A DNA stretch of 20,264 nucleotides, from the IMG/VR virus record IMGVR_UViG_3300037427_002403, positions 1 to 20,264 of that record. One strand, 5' to 3'. Of this stretch, positions 2,466 through 20,052 are shown piece after piece. Below the pieces are notes generated by a model. The model saw nothing but the letters and a program-made list of their open reading frames with translations. It was not told where the DNA came from and did no database searches. The translations under genes and the position numbers were made by a program. The number at the start of each line of letters is the position of its first letter. Within the stretch, counting starts at the first letter, position 1. The stretch comes from a virus.

Positions 2466-3230
2466 TCAAGTGTTTATATTATATTCACTATTATCGCCTG
2501 GATAGTCCTCTGGTGTCAAGCCCTGGTACTCTGGAATGAGTTTCTCACCATCCTTTCTCTCTCCAAAGATATGATAGTAACAATTGATTGGCATTCCACC
2601 TTGTGCCTGGAGATATACTTTGTCCTCATCAACTCTCTTCACAATAACATTTTGATGAGCACCAATAGGAGTGAGTGATACTGTAATAGATTGTGTGTCT
2701 ACCAATCCTTTCCAATACCTAGGAAGTTCAATCTCTTTTTTATTAGTAACCTTTCCGCGTACATATACATCATTCTGTGGTGCTTCTGGACAAGTATGTC
2801 TTAGTCTCCAACCTTCTATCGTTGGATGTTTAATATCAAAATTCTTCTTTGCTGCTAAGATATGACCACCACAATTAGATATAACATGTCCTTGTGCAAT
2901 CAAATGCATACCAACATTAACATTGCTTGTTGTGTCAACCATTCCCATTAATGCTGAAGGTCCTAAAACACCTAATGAATATGGATTATTAACTCCAGTA
3001 CATAATGCTCCAGGAATCTTTGGAGGTCCAATTAAATCAGAATTTGAACAAGGAGCAACCATCAATGTTGCACCAACAAAAGGCCATGCTGCTGCTGATC
3101 CAACTATTTGTGGACCTTCAATAAAAGATGATCCTCTAATCTTTGTAAGACCTAAACCAAGTGCAATGGGAAGTCCAGCGCCAACAAGTTGCTGACCTCC
3201 TGTTGCTGTATCATCAAACATAAATGACAT
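2466..3230 (-). CDS. Fibre-type virion protein, 254 aa
   Basis: A virion-type protein with two parts. Residues 1 to about 125 are rich in Gly, Ala and Pro with scattered hydrophobic stretches (LVGAGLPIALGLGL, VGATLMVAP). Residues 128-254 form the domain shared with the 236-residue protein at 1066-1776 (KKNFDIKHPTIEGWRLRH, DVYVRGKV, LPRYWKGLVD, SLTPIGAHQN, then PEDYPGDN near the end). The domain is familiar from putative tail fibre or adhesin proteins of marine myoviruses; its exact job is not known to me. An excellent Shine-Dalgarno, AGAGGAGGA, ends about 5 bases before the ATG, so translation should be strong, as expected of a structural protein. The gene is followed by the oxygenase after one base. 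The N-terminal Gly/Pro pattern vaguely recalls spike-tip proteins but lacks a clear PAAR signature. Confidence 0.75.
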   Translation of the reverse strand: MSFMFDDTATGGQQLVGAGLPIALGLGLTKIRGSSFIEGPQIVGSAAAWPFVGATLMVAPCSNSDLIGPPKIPGALCTGVNNPYSLGVLGPSALMGMVDTTSNVNVGMHLIAQGHVISNCGGHILAAKKNFDIKHPTIEGWRLRHTCPEAPQNDVYVRGKVTNKKEIELPRYWKGLVDTQSITVSLTPIGAHQNVIVKRVDEDKVYLQAQGGMPINCYYHIFGERKDGEKLIPEYQGLTPEDYPGDNSEYNINT

Positions 3231-12233: not shown

Positions 12234-15200
12234 TCATGCATTGAAAACAAGAGCGGCCATTGGATCACCACCACCTCTACCACTTCCACCACCAGTTAGT
12301 ACAGGAACAATCTGTTTTGATCCCTGTGCCAAAAGAAGTTCTTTATCACTGTTTGATAGATCAACTTTCTGTCCTGCTTGCGAAGCATATTGAGGCCAAC
12401 TTCTTAAGAGTGCAACAGTCTGTGCATAATTTCCTCTATTGAGTTGCTTCAACATATGGGGGAAAACATTATCCATTGCTGCTGTAGAATCAGCATCCAT
12501 AACAAATTCTTTACCCCTTTCACCCAACCAGGCCTGATGTCTATATCCTTTAGTGTATCCACCTTTCCAATGTTTCTCAAGAGCAGGTCTAGATGTTGCC
12601 TTTCCCAACCCTAATTTATCAGTTATTCTTTTAGGATTCATAGTCTGATCAACTCTTGCATTCGCTTTTGTATATTTCCTAGCATAATCCAAATGCAAAT
12701 GAGGTCCGTCAGACAATCCAGTACTTCCTACAGTACCAACAACAGTTCCACCACCAACGTCCTGACCCATCTTAGCATACACTGAATTAAGATGAGAAAG
12801 TTTTAGAAAGGATCCATTATTCAATTTAATAGCAAGGAAATTACCATAACCACCTCCACGACCATCAGTATTAACATCAACAATTTTTCCTGGTTCATTT
12901 ATACCAAGAGGTGTTCCTGTTGGATTTGCATAATCTTCACCACTATGTCCTTGTGCAGGAATATGTCCAGACATACCTTTTTCACCAGCAACTCCATGTG
13001 GTCCTCTCTTACGTGATCCTGGTCCAGCAGGATTATAATATCCATAATCAGAACCACCTGGATCTGGAATTTGTGTTATTGCACCACTCTGATAAGTCGT
13101 TTCATCTCCTGTTGATGCAAGACCAAGCGATCCACCTTTATTACCATAAGTACCACTAGCAACACTACCACTTGTCTTTGAACCACTCAACACACTCATT
13201 ACATGATCCCAAGTAGTATGTGCTTTATTTCCAGAAGCAAACCGATCTTGATATGTTAAATTACTTGGACCTTCTGGAAGACCTCTCCAAGTTCCAGCAA
13301 GATTATAAGCAAACTTTTCAGTAGTCATACTACCAGATTTCCATGCTTTATAACCACCTCCATTAATCAATAAGATAGCAAGTTTATCCTGATTTTCTGG
13401 ACTAAACAAATCTTTATTAGGATCTAACCCAATATCCCTTGCTCTCTTTAATACATAATCAGGCATCTGCTGGTATCTACCCATCGCACCAGATCCATAA
13501 CCAGCATTTAAAGCTGCACGTCTAGCACCAGCAATAGTCATGGTACTTAAACCATCAATATGACCAGAATTAATAGTATCATAAGACTTTGCTTCAACAC
13601 TAGAAATAAGATCTAAAATATCACCATACTCTCCTGAAGATTCAGTAGCATAAGTCTGACCAGTTGGGCTAAATCCAGGTCGTCTAACTTCACCAGCACC
13701 AGTCGCAGAATCACCAGCAGCAGCACCCATTTTTCCAAGTGTTAATTGATGCCTTAAATCATTAATCGTATCCTCAACTGTTCTATCAATACTTTTCTCA
13801 ACTGATCTTGCAATAACATTTGATAAATCTCTACCATCCAATAACATATTAGCCCTTGCTTCACCACCACCAGCATACCCTAATTCTACATCACCAAACA
13901 TATCATATACCCATGCGTTTAATCCTTTTCCAATATTCCAATAATCAATTTTTGATGGTTTAGTTCCTGAAAGTGCTTTAACACTCACTCCCATAAGAGG
14001 ACCAAAGAAAGGAGTCTTAATATCCTTATCATAAACATCTTTAATATAACCCATAGGATCCATGGGTGTTTTAGTTACCCTAGTACCAGTAATACCAGTA
14101 GTACCAGTAAAAACACCAAGAGGATCCCACCATGCACTATCCGTTCCATGTTCTTTGAATTTATGATAATTCTCAGTATCTGGGAACATCCTATCAAGTT
14201 TTTTCTCACCACCTACATCTCTTCCAGGCACCAAGGGCAACGGTATAACCCTAGGTAGAGACCTTCTAATTTTTCTAGAAGTTCTACGTGATCTTGTTCT
14301 TAACTTTCTTCCTGTCTTACCACCACCAAACATCTTCTCCACATCAGGTACTTTTGTTGGCGGTTCAGATGGTTTCGTCTTACCACCAAAAATTGCATCA
14401 TATATTGCACCACCTAACACACTTCCACCAGTACCACCAAGGAACATACCTATACCAGTTCCAACAAAAGGAATAGGTATTAAAGTTCCAAGAAGACCAC
14501 CTATCCATGTTCCTAATCCAGCACCAATACCTTTAAATGCTGCTTTACCAATAGGATCTCCTAGAGCCCATGATAATCCAAACTCCAACAATCCACCAAT
14601 AAATGGTATTTTACTAACAAGAGGTTTTACTAATCTTAAAATATTTTTAGCTCCTTGCTTCCCAACCACCATCATAAATCCTCTTCGGGCAAGATTTGTC
14701 GCTTGAGAGCGTGCAAACTTTCCACCTAATGCCTTAACACCTTCACTTCCAACCTGCCTAGTTGCAGCTCTTCTACCATGCTTTAAAGCAAACTTCCTAG
14801 CAGCTGCAGTACTTGTTAATTTTCCACCTTTTTTAGCTAAAAGTGTTTGACCACCACGCTTGAAAACTTGACCACTTGCAGCACCTCGACCAAACATCCC
14901 AGGAGCCATCCTGGCCATTGCCATTGCTACAATAAGAGAAGCATTTAAAACAGTGTTAAGAGCCTTACTAAGTGCATCAAATTTTTCAAGACCCTTTTCA
15001 CCAAATATATTCTTTACTAATCCTCTAAATGTATCATAAAGTTTATAACCCCAATCAACAACAGTTACTATTGCATTTAAAATTTTTCCTGCCCAATCCA
15101 AAACAAATTCAGTAGCTGCTGCTAATACAGGAAGGAATTTTAATAACTTTGGAAGATGTGGTAGTAATTTAATAGCAACAAAACCAAGAATCATCTTAAA

Positions 15201-15545
15201 AAGAAAATTCTTAATCTTTTCTAAGAATGAAAGTCGTGGTAAAGAAATCTTCTTACCAGGTTTTTCATCACCTTCTGGTTTCTTTTCTAGTTCATCCTCT
15301 TTAACTTGCTGCTTTTGTTTCTCTGTTCTTATTCTTTTTTTATTTGCAGCATCCTTTTCAATCTTAAAATTAGTCTTTATAAGATTTTCTATCTTAATTA
15401 TTTTTGAATGTACTACAACTAATTCACCACTCTCATCATCTTTCTTCCCCATCTTTACAAGATTAGCAGAAGATACCTTCTTAGTACTTGAAGGTAGAAA
15501 CTTCGTTGGATTTACTTTTGCTGCTGGTAGTGCTTTAGTTGCCAT
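12234..15545 (-). CDS. Tape-measure-like tail hydrolase: GH104-like lysozyme plus M23 peptidase
   Basis: A 1103-residue tail protein that can probably open peptidoglycan in two ways. Residues 1-100 are basic and coiled. Hydrophobic or amphipathic segments lie at about 105-165 and 315-395 (Gly-rich, GxxxG pattern). Residues about 636-787 resemble lambda-R/GH104-type lytic transglycosylases: LDLISSVEAKSYDTIN with a likely catalytic Glu, then GAMGRYQQMPDYVLKRARDIG and a QD-LA-LLI helix. Residues about 855-960 are an intact M23 endopeptidase: HSGEDYANPTGTPLG (HxxxD zinc ligands) and GLSDGPHLHLDYA (HxH). Near residue 1013 a GERGKEFVMDADSTAAMD motif recalls tape-measure proteins. The start follows the previous stop by 6 bases, with GTGAG as weak ribosome site. 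It is probably packed in or near the tail lumen and enters the cell envelope at infection. Confidence 0.85.
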   Translation of the reverse strand: MATKALPAAKVNPTKFLPSSTKKVSSANLVKMGKKDDESGELVVVHSKIIKIENLIKTNFKIEKDAANKKRIRTEKQKQQVKEDELEKKPEGDEKPGKKISLPRLSFLEKIKNFLFKMILGFVAIKLLPHLPKLLKFLPVLAAATEFVLDWAGKILNAIVTVVDWGYKLYDTFRGLVKNIFGEKGLEKFDALSKALNTVLNASLIVAMAMARMAPGMFGRGAASGQVFKRGGQTLLAKKGGKLTSTAAARKFALKHGRRAATRQVGSEGVKALGGKFARSQATNLARRGFMMVVGKQGAKNILRLVKPLVSKIPFIGGLLEFGLSWALGDPIGKAAFKGIGAGLGTWIGGLLGTLIPIPFVGTGIGMFLGGTGGSVLGGAIYDAIFGGKTKPSEPPTKVPDVEKMFGGGKTGRKLRTRSRRTSRKIRRSLPRVIPLPLVPGRDVGGEKKLDRMFPDTENYHKFKEHGTDSAWWDPLGVFTGTTGITGTRVTKTPMDPMGYIKDVYDKDIKTPFFGPLMGVSVKALSGTKPSKIDYWNIGKGLNAWVYDMFGDVELGYAGGGEARANMLLDGRDLSNVIARSVEKSIDRTVEDTINDLRHQLTLGKMGAAAGDSATGAGEVRRPGFSPTGQTYATESSGEYGDILDLISSVEAKSYDTINSGHIDGLSTMTIAGARRAALNAGYGSGAMGRYQQMPDYVLKRARDIGLDPNKDLFSPENQDKLAILLINGGGYKAWKSGSMTTEKFAYNLAGTWRGLPEGPSNLTYQDRFASGNKAHTTWDHVMSVLSGSKTSGSVASGTYGNKGGSLGLASTGDETTYQSGAITQIPDPGGSDYGYYNPAGPGSRKRGPHGVAGEKGMSGHIPAQGHSGEDYANPTGTPLGINEPGKIVDVNTDGRGGGYGNFLAIKLNNGSFLKLSHLNSVYAKMGQDVGGGTVVGTVGSTGLSDGPHLHLDYARKYTKANARVDQTMNPKRITDKLGLGKATSRPALEKHWKGGYTKGYRHQAWLGERGKEFVMDADSTAAMDNVFPHMLKQLNRGNYAQTVALLRSWPQYASQAGQKVDLSNSDKELLLAQGSKQIVPVLTGGGSGRGGGDPMAALVFNA

Positions 15546-15551
15546 TTATTC

Positions 15552-18149
15552 TCACCACGGTAATCTAATTCCTAAGAAACTAGTAGTATTATATTTGTCA
15601 CGATCTGCTGCGCTACAACTAGCAGATATTGGTGGCGTACTTGTTGGAGATTCTGTTGTTGCTTGAGAAGAAGGAGTAGTAACCCCACCACCACCGGCAT
15701 CACCACTAGAAGCACCAGTATTTACTTTTACAGTAGGTCTTACTGGTGGTCCTGGTAATTGCTTTTTAGATGCTGCCTGATCCTTTGCAAGTACAGAAAG
15801 TCTTTCCTTTCTTGCATCTACTGCTTGTTGATAGTTACCATAATATTTTCCATCAGATGAAGAATAATATTTACCAATAGCAGCAGCCCCTGCTTGTTTT
15901 ATTCTTGCTGTTGCTGCTTTATCTTCTACGTTAAGATCTCTCCAATTTCCTTTATTATCCGTATAACCACGATCAGTAGTCATCATTCGTGTAAATTGAC
16001 CCCACCAACCACCACGTTTCTGAATTGATTCTTGCCGTGCATTCTCTTCAGCATCAAACCTCTTTCCTCTTCCTTTAACTTCATGTATACCTTTTTTCTG
16101 ATTCCATGATGTAAAAGATCGATGTGCTTTACCTTCATTACTTAACTTATCTAACCTAGCCTGCGATGCTTTTTTAACTTGTAATGCCTTAGATAAATTC
16201 CTTTCTGATCCCCATTGCCTATCAACACCACCAGAAATTGGATCAAAACCTATTCCACCAAGTTTCTGACTTCCTCGGTGATCAAAATCAGTTAATCCAA
16301 GTCCAAAAATATCACCCAAACCAGCAAGACCTCTCATAAATCCTTGTGGTTTTAACTCATTCAATTCTCCTCCTTTCTCCGTATACCTCTTTTTACCAGC
16401 ATCAGTCCAATTTCTTGGAGTCCATTTTCCAGTCTTTGTATTAAGATAACCCATCCGGCCACCGCTTGGTGCCATCACATTATGTTGTGTAGATGTAGAT
16501 CGTAACTTTCCAGAACCAGAAGTATTAATATTAATATCACCGACTTCTACTTTAGGAGGTTTCAATTCTGAACCCACTCCAGGTCTATTACTCTTCATCC
16601 AAAATCCTTGAGAACCTGATATTGGAGCTTGCCAAATATAAATTTGGTTCAGTTTATCTTTATACCATGCTCCTGGGGATTTATTTTCTTTTGCTGCTGG
16701 TACATTATTAGGACCATCACCAGATGTTTTATCACCCATATGACCACCACCAGCAGCATAAGTAGTTCCCTTCATCATCGTGGGTCTATTTGTTCCACCA
16801 CCTGCAGCATTCCACTGTTCCATCTGATCAACACCCCAGTGCCGTACTGCACCTGCACTCATTACAAATTCCTGATCAGATAACATAGCAGGAATTTTAT
16901 CTACACCCTTTTCACCTGACACTAATCCACCAAACCAATCTTGAATCTTACCTGAACCCAATCCAGCACCTAAAAGCATTCCAAGTGGTCCAAACATACT
17001 ACCCAACAATCCACCTTTCAATCCACCACCAAATCCACCACCAAAAAATCCATATGATTTTGTTTTACCAGTATCTAATTTATGAAGTTGTTCTTGTGCT
17101 TCAGCAGATTCTCCAGTAAGTGTTTGCCAAAGATTTGGGTTATTTGCTTGCTGTTCTAACTGTGATCTAACCGTATCCTCTCCTTGTTCTTCAACTTTTT
17201 TCTCAGTTTTTCTTTCTTCTGCATCTACTGTTCCTGGCAACATTTTAGGAATTAATGCCCCAGCAGCAAATAATCCTATACCAGCTGCTGCAGCTGCTAA
17301 CCATGGATTAGATGCAACTACACTCACCAATTTAACAATCCAACCCCCAATCATGGGAATAAAACCACCAATAAAAGAACCAAATCCTGTTCCAAATAAA
17401 ATATAACCGCCTAATAAAGCAGGCCACCAATCCTCAAAAAACCTAATAATACTTTTAACTTTACCTTGATTTTTTTTATCACCCAACCATTGCATCATCT
17501 TTATCAATGCACGTCCTAAAACCATCTTTATAAAAAATTCAAAAATTCTTTGAAAGATTGATTTTACAGGTCCTAATATCTTATCTGCTGCCTTTGCTAT
17601 AACACCTACACCTTTTTTAAGACCTCCTAATATTTTTTCTCTACGTGATCTCTTTGCATCTTTCTCCTCATCCGCAGCTTGCTTCCTATCAAATTTATTT
17701 TTTTGTTTTAAAACGTTTGCAATATTATCAAGAGAAGTTTTAATACCTTCTAATACACTAACCTTCTCCTTCTGCGGTTCTGCAGTACCAGGAAGTAACT
17801 TTTGAGCAGAAACTGTTGTTGTTTTTACTCCTACTCCACCACCTGATTTTATATTCTCTGCTTTTATTACCTTTTTCTTTGCTACAAATCTACCTTTCTT
17901 ACTCTTTACTCTCTTCCATTCATTAGTTACTCTTTCAACTTCCTCACTTGGTATCTCAGTCTTGGATGCGCGACCTTTGGCCATAAATTCGCGCAATGCA
18001 TCCTTATAAGTATCATAATCCATCTCGACTTCAAAGGCTTCAATGCCAAGAAGTCTTAAAACCCTTTCATCAATCTTTTCGGCAGCAACATTAGGCGCTT
18101 TCTTACCGCTAGGTACTAAACTTAAAATGTTTTTAGAACTAGATGCCAT
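15552..18149 (-). CDS. Predicted tail tape measure protein, 865 aa
   Basis: Probably the tape measure or its functional equivalent, inferred from position directly after the gp26/gp51-type chaperone genes and from composition. Residues 1-100 are charged. Residues 130-200 are basic coiled helices. Residues 196-305 hold amphipathic and hydrophobic stretches (RIFEFFIKMVLGRALIKMM, WWPALLGGYILFGTGFGSFIGGF, NPWLAAAAAGIGLFAAGALI), like those tape measures use to enter the host membrane. A Gly-rich segment (about 370-405) leads to DKIPAMLSDQEFVMSAGAVRHWG, a motif common in tape measures. The rest is Gly/Lys-rich and probably disordered. The N-terminal layout parallels the 1103-residue hydrolase, and the two may be paralogues. 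T4 gp29 has 590 residues and shows no obvious similarity by eye. The ATG overlaps the end of the gp51-type ORF by 11 bases. Confidence 0.7.
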   Translation of the reverse strand: MASSSKNILSLVPSGKKAPNVAAEKIDERVLRLLGIEAFEVEMDYDTYKDALREFMAKGRASKTEIPSEEVERVTNEWKRVKSKKGRFVAKKKVIKAENIKSGGGVGVKTTTVSAQKLLPGTAEPQKEKVSVLEGIKTSLDNIANVLKQKNKFDRKQAADEEKDAKRSRREKILGGLKKGVGVIAKAADKILGPVKSIFQRIFEFFIKMVLGRALIKMMQWLGDKKNQGKVKSIIRFFEDWWPALLGGYILFGTGFGSFIGGFIPMIGGWIVKLVSVVASNPWLAAAAAGIGLFAAGALIPKMLPGTVDAEERKTEKKVEEQGEDTVRSQLEQQANNPNLWQTLTGESAEAQEQLHKLDTGKTKSYGFFGGGFGGGLKGGLLGSMFGPLGMLLGAGLGSGKIQDWFGGLVSGEKGVDKIPAMLSDQEFVMSAGAVRHWGVDQMEQWNAAGGGTNRPTMMKGTTYAAGGGHMGDKTSGDGPNNVPAAKENKSPGAWYKDKLNQIYIWQAPISGSQGFWMKSNRPGVGSELKPPKVEVGDININTSGSGKLRSTSTQHNVMAPSGGRMGYLNTKTGKWTPRNWTDAGKKRYTEKGGELNELKPQGFMRGLAGLGDIFGLGLTDFDHRGSQKLGGIGFDPISGGVDRQWGSERNLSKALQVKKASQARLDKLSNEGKAHRSFTSWNQKKGIHEVKGRGKRFDAEENARQESIQKRGGWWGQFTRMMTTDRGYTDNKGNWRDLNVEDKAATARIKQAGAAAIGKYYSSSDGKYYGNYQQAVDARKERLSVLAKDQAASKKQLPGPPVRPTVKVNTGASSGDAGGGGVTTPSSQATTESPTSTPPISASCSAADRDKYNTTSFLGIRLPW

Positions 18150-18318
18150 GCGCCTGTTGTTGCTTTAATTTTTCTTCTTCAAGATGCTGCTTCAAAAGTT
18201 CAACATAGATATCTCTTTCCCAAGGTATCATGTTTTCAATGTCTGATAATGAATATTTATGATACTGCATCAAAGCAAAATTAAGTCGGAGATAATTCTC
18301 CAGGTCCATATGGACCAT
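18139..18318 (-). CDS. gp51-type / T-like tail assembly chaperone ORF, 59 codons
   Basis: A short reading frame beginning MVHMDLENYLRLNFALMQYH and ending QQQAHGI. It has the pattern of the second half of tape-measure chaperones: a helix followed by an I-PWERD-Y-E-LL-x-HLEEE block, as in lambda gpT-like extensions. Cyanophage annotations often call such a protein gp51, although T4 gp51 is much longer. No Shine-Dalgarno lies near the ATG at 18318; a GAGGGA is 23 bases away. The frame continues open upstream into the slippery site at the end of gp26 and is exactly the -1 frame of gp26. I therefore think it is made mainly as a C-terminal extension of gp26 by frameshifting (about 300 residues in total), with separate initiation possible. 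It overlaps the tape-measure gene by 11 bases. Confidence 0.8.
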   Translation of the reverse strand: MVHMDLENYLRLNFALMQYHKYSLSDIENMIPWERDIYVELLKQHLEEEKLKQQQAHGI

Positions 18319-18347
18319 GACTAAGCGAAAAAAGATGCCAGTCCCTC
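18303..18347 (-). promoter_or_regulatory. -1 programmed ribosomal frameshift cassette, gp26 to gp51-type ORF
   Basis: Three elements stand in order on the minus strand. A Shine-Dalgarno-like GAGGGA is at 18347-18342. The heptamer T TTT TTC is at 18333-18327 in the gp26 frame (codons TCT TTT TTC), an X XXY YYZ slippery site. Then, after 10 bases, the perfect palindrome GGTCCATATGGACC at 18316-18303 can fold into a 5-bp stem with an ATAT loop. A -1 slip gives CGC TTA GTC ATG, continuing in the frame of the 59-codon ORF without a stop. Without the slip, gp26 ends two codons later (GCT TAG). The arrangement matches dnaX-type signals, and its place just before the tape measure matches the lambda G/GT site. 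Confidence 0.8.
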
Positions 18348-19040
18348 AATTACTACTTCGCTTTCAACTTTTGTCTTTGGATTCTTAACTGTGATTGTAT
18401 GAGAAAGTTTAGGCATTGTCTCAAAGAAATTCTCAATCTCTTTAAACTGATTAGAATTCATTGATTCTAAAAAGTCATTCACTTCTTTCTTAGTACAATC
18501 TGCTGCAGCCCATACTTCTTCTTCAGTATAGATCTTATCAATACATTGACCAATCAATTGGAAAGACTGATCCATTTGATTTTCATCTGCCATATCAAAA
18601 TTAGATTTAATAAATTGATCCAACGATGGATACTTAAGTTCCATCATAATAGAATCATCAAGTTTAATTTGATTAGTATGTTCATCATCTCTTTGAACAC
18701 TAATATCATCAAGATTAATCTTTACTTGAGCAGTAGTAGTCTCATCATCAGGACAAGTAACATTAACTTCAATTTCTTCACCAACAGACTTACCACGAAT
18801 ATTTAAAAATAGATATTCAATATCGAATGTAGGAAGTGATTCTACTTTAATTCCTTTAGTATGAATACAATTTTTAAGTACTGTTTTAATTGCAGTAGTA
18901 ATCTGTTTAGTGTCTTCACTCTCTAATGCAATGACAAGTACCTTTTCCTCTTTAACAAGAAAAGGTCTATACTTAATTGTTTCTCCTGTTGATGGCAACT
19001 CAAGTTCATAAGTTGGTGTAACGATCTTTGGTAAAGGCAT
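18321..19040 (-). CDS. 26: Baseplate hub / tape-measure chaperone gp26
   Basis: The T4 gp26-like protein (T4_baseplate family), 239 residues against 208 in T4. Recognisable parts are the opening PTYELELPSTGETIKYRPFLVKEEK (given in pieces: PTYELELPSTG, IKYRPFLVKEEKVL), LPTFDIEYLFLNIRGKSVGE, a beta segment VNVTCPDDET-TTAQVKI, and a helical C-terminal half with YTEEEVWAAADCTKKEV and FFETMPKLSHTI. In T4 it helps assemble the hub. By position just before the tape measure it corresponds to the G-type chaperone of other phages. The ribosome site TAGGAT is about 5 bases before the ATG. Near its 3' end is the slippery sequence described separately, so the protein probably exists as a short form and as an extended form containing the gp51-type sequence. 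Confidence 0.85.
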   Translation of the reverse strand: MPLPKIVTPTYELELPSTGETIKYRPFLVKEEKVLVIALESEDTKQITTAIKTVLKNCIHTKGIKVESLPTFDIEYLFLNIRGKSVGEEIEVNVTCPDDETTTAQVKINLDDISVQRDDEHTNQIKLDDSIMMELKYPSLDQFIKSNFDMADENQMDQSFQLIGQCIDKIYTEEEVWAAADCTKKEVNDFLESMNSNQFKEIENFFETMPKLSHTITVKNPKTKVESEVVIEGLASFFA

Positions 19041-19089: not shown

Positions 19090-20052
19090 TTATTTCCTAA
19101 TTTTAATTTGGTTGTTTGGCAATTTTTGATATTGGACACGAGTTGTATTAGGAGAAATTCCTTGTTGTCTCATTGCTGTTCTTAATCGTTGACCTAATTG
19201 TCCTCTTTGTATCTGCATACCAGTTGCGGTAAACCACTTATGCGTAGGAGGAATTGGTGGTGGTGAAGTAACTGGAGGCCGTTTATCTTGCTTTTCTGCC
19301 TCTACCACTTCCGCTGCTGGTTCTCTCTTACCTTGAACACTATTAATATAGTATCTAATATATGACATCGAAACTGTACATTTTAATATCTGTGATGCAT
19401 CATATGTCACTGGCATCGATACTATAGAAGTAGGAAAACAGTTTACAAATTTATAAACCAAGTTTGTACCTAAACCATCCTTTTCAAATTTTTCTACTGC
19501 TACACCTTGTGCATAATACTCAGCTGGATATTTCATCCTATAAGAATGATTTGGTTTCTCTAAATCATCATTATAAGGTTCATTAGCAATATATTTCATC
19601 CATGTTTCAAAAAATCTAATAGGAATATATGCATTCTCACCAGCAGGAACCATAAAAGTAAAATCTATTTTATTATCATACACTCTTCTATAGGCATGCT
19701 GTTCTGTAACACCTGTAAAATCACTAGTTATCGTATGTGTTGCAAGACTTGATCCTGGCAAAACTGTTTCTGAACAAAGAAGATAAAGTGTCTCTTGTGC
19801 TCCAGTATTATAATTTAATCCAGCATCTTTTTTTGCTTGACTCCATTTCTCACGAGACTTTATAGTACCATTCCCAGGTTCAGTAATTGAAACTACAAAT
19901 TGAGATGTTAATGATGGTTGAAGAATCTTAGCCGCAATATCATTAAAATGCTTTGCACCAGAACTAGGAGTACTCTCGTTAACTGAACCTATCGATTCAG
20001 CACCTTGATTTAAAAAAGATGCTGTATAATCTGGGTGAGAAGGGAACACCAT
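19090..20052 (-). CDS. Baseplate tail-tube cap/initiator protein (gp48/gp54-type)
   Basis: A 320-residue protein of the T4 tube-related family (gp19, gp48, gp54), placed at the baseplate end of the tail tube. It begins MVFPSHPDYTASFLNQGAES, and the core has LTSQFVVSI, ETVLPGSSLATHTI, YRRVYDNKIDFTFMVP, IPIRFFETWMKYI, KFVNCFPTSIVSMPVTYD and ILKCTVSMSYIRYYI. This order of strands is typical of tube-like beta domains. The C-terminal 60 residues are Pro- and basic-rich (RPPVTSPPPIPPTHKW) and may be a tail contacting the tape measure or sheath. T4 gp48 has 364 residues and gp54 has 320; I cannot decide between them by eye. The upstream region lacks a close Shine-Dalgarno. It lies head to head with gp4 and opens the minus-strand tail cluster. 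Confidence 0.75.
   Translation of the reverse strand: MVFPSHPDYTASFLNQGAESIGSVNESTPSSGAKHFNDIAAKILQPSLTSQFVVSITEPGNGTIKSREKWSQAKKDAGLNYNTGAQETLYLLCSETVLPGSSLATHTITSDFTGVTEQHAYRRVYDNKIDFTFMVPAGENAYIPIRFFETWMKYIANEPYNDDLEKPNHSYRMKYPAEYYAQGVAVEKFEKDGLGTNLVYKFVNCFPTSIVSMPVTYDASQILKCTVSMSYIRYYINSVQGKREPAAEVVEAEKQDKRPPVTSPPPIPPTHKWFTATGMQIQRGQLGQRLRTAMRQQGISPNTTRVQYQKLPNNQIKIRK

Follow-up and report, generated by a model that had tools for sequence, protein, structure and literature searches.

In bacteriophage lambda, a programmed -1 frameshift gives rise to the G and G-T tail proteins (Levin 1993; Xu, Hendrix & Duda 2004; reviewed in PMC5009743). According to the same 2016 review, G-T frameshifting is conserved among long-tailed phages, T4 excepted. 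In a T4 review, gp26 and gp51 are described as hub assembly chaperones, gp51 being of unknown function. Tail assembly chaperones (TAC) of T4-like phages were identified by Vladimirov, Gautam & Davidson (2022, Virology 566:9). As far as citing papers summarize this work, some T4-like phages carry a short chaperone gene and a longer fused gene (PMC10885494), and it is credited with the poly-T signals for frameshifting known from the TAC-N genes of T4-like phages (PMC12846349). Here, we analyzed DNA of 20,264 nucleotides from a T4-like cyanophage, a virus infecting marine cyanobacteria (IMG/VR record IMGVR_UViG_3300037427_002403, positions 1 to 20,264; the window hereafter) in which a gp26-type gene is followed by a short gp51-type open reading frame (ORF) in the -1 frame. 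Its sequence and that of its relatives indicate that the two very probably constitute a single TAC gene expressed by programmed -1 ribosomal frameshifting.

The locus resembles lambda G/G-T by its apparent position between a tail-tube gene and a (candidate) tape-measure gene, by its short and predicted long forms, by a predicted -1 shift close to the 3' end of G and by a T part in an overlapping frame. It differs by its heptamer, T TTT TTC, and by the presence of a Shine-Dalgarno-like element and a hairpin. The slippery heptamer of lambda is G GGA AAG. Judged by homology, and within what citing papers report, the T4-like chaperones of Vladimirov et al. (2022) belong to the same gene family, which makes the predicted frameshift of the window one more case of a known kind. 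In the chaperone locus of Vandenendeviridae and Andersonviridae (phage Adele, PMC12846349), the downstream part is likewise annotated as a separate gene. However, these belong to other phage families and their motif is GTTTTT. The gp26-type and gp51-type genes lie on the minus strand, and the following features (coordinates of the whole window) define the junction:

18321..19040, minus strand: gp26-type ORF, short form (G / TAC-N), 239 amino acids (PF12322 T4_baseplate, 2e-77; phrog_150, 1e-80)
18342..18347, minus strand: Shine-Dalgarno-like GAGGGA, 8 bases upstream of the heptamer
18327..18333, minus strand: slippery heptamer T TTT TTC, in gp26 phase
18321..18323, minus strand: zero-frame stop TAG of gp26, one codon past the heptamer (same spacing in 153/168 relatives)
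18303..18316, minus strand: palindrome GGTCCATATGGACC, predicted 5-bp hairpin with a 4-base loop, 10 bases downstream of the heptamer
18318-18139, minus strand: gp51-type ORF, 59 codons, -1 frame (phrog_634, 7.3e-27)
18139..18327, minus strand: T part after the predicted slip, 62 residues (R L V M V H M D L E N ...)
complement(join(18139..18327,18327..19040)), minus strand: conceptual G-T fusion, 238 + 62 = 300 residues

The 3' end of gp26 reads GCA TCT TTT TTC GCT TAG and the -1 frame stays open over the junction (TTT TTT CGC TTA GTC ATG GTC CAT ATG). An earlier note on this DNA had described the heptamer, the open -1 frame, the GAGGGA and the 14-base palindrome at these coordinates, all of which were confirmed; the fusion, which it put at about 300 residues, has exactly 300. 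Furthermore, in-frame homologues of T4 gp51 align with this conceptual fusion over its full length.

The junction was compared with 172 distinct junctions taken from IMG/VR and from GenBank isolates, as the earlier note had proposed. The second ORF is in the -1 frame in 170 of them, and in 169 after removal of a T4-like contig (L179), rejected as a false T4-like pairing. An in-phase T TTT TTY lies 0-8 codons upstream of the gp26 stop in 168 of these 169 junctions (154 TTTTTTC and 14 TTTTTTT), while neighboring third positions vary. Because two database searches that started from the window's own proteins supplied most of the 168, close relatives are over-represented among them; more independent evidence comes from named isolates and from a set seeded with pf16. 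Leaving aside the D506/Ackermannviridae group, the 12 named non-T4 isolates examined that have a -1 T part all carry the heptamer. They include S-SM2, P-SSM2, S-N03, Melnitz-2, HTVC008M and pf16, as well as Ps15, phiM7, D484, EniLVp02, VH7D and AS-yj, the hosts being Synechococcus, Prochlorococcus, Pelagibacter, Methylophilales, Sinorhizobium, Pseudomonas, Stenotrophomonas, Vibrio and Aeromonas.

Codon choice, stimulatory elements and first methionine codons were examined in 125 cyanophage-type genes and junctions. The two codons of the site are TTT then TTC in all 125, whereas TTC makes up 27% of all Phe codons in these genes. In the other conserved Phe-Phe pair, TTT occupies the second position in 123 of 124 cases. 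The codon that supplies the first T of the heptamer always ends in T; when it encodes Ser, TCT and AGT are equally used (60/60). Moreover, in-phase TTTTTTY is rare elsewhere: the 12 long window ORFs tested (6204 codons) have none besides the junction site, and a single other one is found upstream of the site in the 125 gp26 genes (29,338 codon steps). Codon choice and this rarity rule out a chance occurrence of the heptamer.

The flanking elements are also conserved. GAGG or AAGGG is retained in 120 of the 125 junctions, at the place of strongest mean anti-Shine-Dalgarno pairing across a scan of 220 bases around the site (-160 to +60). Local RNA stability is maximal just downstream of the heptamer. 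For the hairpin, 86.2% of pair cells are standard versus at most 53.1% when it is slid by 1-6 bases. Its pairing is retained with compensatory changes: with relatedness ignored, the first base of a Val/Ile codon covaries with the third base of an Asp codon (Fisher P 1e-5), and the third base of a Val/Ile codon with the first base of an Asp/Asn codon (Fisher P 3e-11), synonymous positions thereby being matched to non-synonymous partners. The conservation of both elements suggests that they act as frameshift stimulators. The three-part signal (Shine-Dalgarno-like element, heptamer and hairpin) and the covariation of the hairpin may be new to the literature.

Homology to T4 proteins provides a further line of evidence. 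In T4, genes 26 and 51 are divergently oriented. T4 gp51 aligns along its whole length with the gp26 family (2.6e-84) and at its C-terminal end with phrog_634 (1.2e-23), and it also matches PF12322 (3.9e-52); profile scans detect no T part in T4 gp26. A T profile built without T4-like sequences matches only the C-termini of gp51 proteins (E up to 0.006), and position 2 of a T model starting at Phe-Phe coincides with their G/T boundary. Positions 241-281 of the phrog_150 profile already cover the gp51 part, which presumably reflects the presence of fused members. By these matches (PF12322, phrog_150, phrog_634 and T4-free profiles), G is homologous to gp26 and G-T to gp51: T4 gp51 is, as judged from them, a natural in-frame fusion of a gp26-like protein and a T part, and T4 gp26 is the short form. 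Hence, gp26 and gp51 would be the equivalents of lambda G and G-T, which supports the identification of G and T parts made in the earlier note. Its view that gp51 owes its annotation as a separate protein solely to an overlooked shift is right for cyanophages and their relatives but not for T4, where gp51 is a truly separate protein, apparently made from a duplicated fused gene. Nor is the frameshift a new idea for T4-like phages: a precedent is given by Vladimirov et al. (2022), as cited in PMC10885494 and PMC12846349.

The following mechanism can be envisaged. The majority of ribosomes would end at the TAG and produce the short form of 239 residues (lambda gpG, TAC-N). A minority, probably stalled by the Shine-Dalgarno-like GAGGGA behind and by the small hairpin ahead, would undergo slippage of tRNA-Phe from T TTT TTC to TTT TTT, yielding the long form of 300 residues (gpG-T, TAC-NC). 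By analogy with lambda, short and long forms may coat the tape-measure protein ahead of tube assembly, and the T part may recruit the tail-tube protein.

Several observations weigh against this interpretation. The hairpin has just 5 bp, lies 10 bases from the heptamer and keeps all five pairs in 72 of the 125 junctions. An ATG occurs soon after the gp26 stop in most cyanophage copies, so some separate T product may arise by re-initiation. S-SCSM1 (L160, MK867354.2) keeps the heptamer with its T part in +1, and the heptamer is missing from the Ackermannviridae and the Vibrio D506 group, in which the T part is nonetheless in -1, Vibrio D506 (L165) being the genuine exception among the 169 junctions. 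Furthermore, a model of a T4-type G-T protein matched no fold in the PDB, so that no homology to lambda gpG was detected by this route.

This fold link was sought with an AlphaFold model of a T4-type gp51 (pLDDT 91.5). In BFVD, the model matched nothing but T4-type relatives and, at a weak level, further phage proteins of the baseplate or chaperone kind. Other searches of solved structures were empty or gave chance-level matches. Pfam and PHROG scans of the window and T4-type proteins revealed no lambda-type family, and an NCBIfam scan gave weak matches below the cut-off and nothing more.

As for the variant junctions, about 11 apparent extra bases past the gp26 stop of S-SCSM1 (L160:4195-4260) put its gp51 part in +1 rather than -1, which reflects either genuine variation or an error in the sequence. 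In Vibrio D506/K483 and Ackermannviridae (L165:4140-4240, L282, L269, L270, L279, L280, L281), gp26 ends with CTT TTC or ATT TTC and lacks TTTTTTY; we take this site to resemble the shift site of T7 gene 10. In PhaxI, no start codon is evident close to the junction. The contig L179 (L179:2483-3255) is T4-like, with a gp51 gene interrupted by a frame change within its G part.

Could gp51 instead be a separate small protein, translated by re-initiation at an ATG past the gp26 stop, with the Phe-Phe pair reflecting protein conservation only? The first Met codon of the T frame is ATG, 2 bases past the stop, in 86 of the 125 cyanophage-type junctions, and TAATG or TGATG overlaps occur in some Vibrio and Stenotrophomonas phages. 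However, the remaining cyanophage-type junctions mostly have CTN at this place; in S-SM2, for instance, the codon is CTG and the record begins the gene at an internal ATG. More generally, the T frame of 31 of the 168 copies has no ATG, GTG or TTG near the junction, which led us to reject a separate gp51 gene as the sole source of the product. In addition, the T-run occupies the usual Shine-Dalgarno distance ahead of the ATG, the invariant TTC exceeds what the protein needs, and the T4 homologue is fused in frame. We therefore consider re-initiation as very unlikely to account for the locus.

Slippage of RNA polymerase, rather than of the ribosome, would also give access to the -1 frame and is invited by the conserved run of 6-7 T, but such a run is short for transcriptional slippage. 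The run is always in the X XXY YYZ phase and ends with TTY, a point confounded by the Phe-Phe protein sequence, and it is accompanied by a conserved Shine-Dalgarno-like element and hairpin, which are stimulators of ribosomal slippage. This makes a transcriptional origin still less probable than re-initiation. The least credible alternative is that the gp51 ORF is a decayed remnant whose frame change is a pseudogene scar or a sequencing error. Frame disruptions are indeed seen in single contigs, within gp26 in L100 and in L179, but decay or error is refuted by the recurrence of the identical frame relation, with an intact T part, in 169 distinct junctions that stem from independent contigs and isolates. 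Programmed ribosomal frameshifting thus stays by far the best explanation of the junction.

The T4-type arrangement of a short gene and an in-frame fused gene was found neither in the window nor in its frameshift-type relatives, where the G and T frames differ, although no search was made for another fused copy in the rest of the genome. In an unrooted tree that includes some long branches, gp26 and gp51 of T4, Acinetobacter, Aeromonas 31, Proteus, Krischvirus and RB43 phages are on one side (99/97), apart from the frameshift-type Straboviridae (KVP40-like, Aeromonas AS-yj), and gp51 forms a single group (99/95). Since frameshift types exist both in Straboviridae and in other families, the simpler order would be that duplication replaced the frameshift in the T4 lineage. 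RB43 (L273:2983-4291) departs from the divergent order of T4 in that its fused gp51-type and short gp26-type genes are arranged in tandem on one strand. A broader scenario can be put forward only tentatively, as its being wrong seems somewhat the likelier outcome: Kyanoviridae and related T4-like phages would share an incompletely described three-part -1 signal, one Straboviridae lineage (T4 and its kin) would have lost it on duplication into a short gp26 and a pre-fused gp51, and Ackermannviridae and Vibrio D506 would use another site, NTT TTC, to enter the -1 frame.

The genes on either side of the junction are:

19090..20052, minus strand: tail tube family protein, upstream neighbor, in a lambda V-like position (phrog_45, 3.5e-29; PF23849, 2.2e-11)
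15552..18149, minus strand: 865-amino-acid ORF, downstream neighbor overlapping the end of the T part (phrog_35029, 2e-60), tape-measure candidate by position

The gene order is hence tail tube, G, T and a long candidate tape measure. The 865-amino-acid ORF matches the long ORF found at the same position in S-SM2 (8e-46) and S-SCSM1 (2e-47), and the HTVC008M record has a putative tape measure at the corresponding place, one small ORF further along. A second window ORF (12234-15545), which also bears an M23 peptidase domain, matches the long downstream ORF of S-SCSM1 as well (6e-12), which suggests two related tape-measure-like proteins. Elsewhere in the window, the ORFs 1066-1776 and 2466-3230 share long similar stretches (for example KKNFDI.HPT..G.RLRH.C / VYVRGK / YRGLVD) and therefore look like paralogues.

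Since the general idea has been in print since 2022, the value of these data lies in confirmation, breadth and signal anatomy. They correct how a core tail gene is annotated in numerous cyanophage genomes, in whose records gp51 appears as an independent "baseplate hub assembly catalyst", is given an internal start or is unannotated. Most of the database entries examined for this virus family overlook the predicted frameshift, and the T part is also unannotated in the records of the Aeromonas phage AS-yj (L166:4205-4373) and of VH7D (L272). As putative G and G-T, gp26 and gp51 gain a concrete and testable role, and the locus offers a case of a frameshift that has apparently been superseded by gene duplication inside one virus family.
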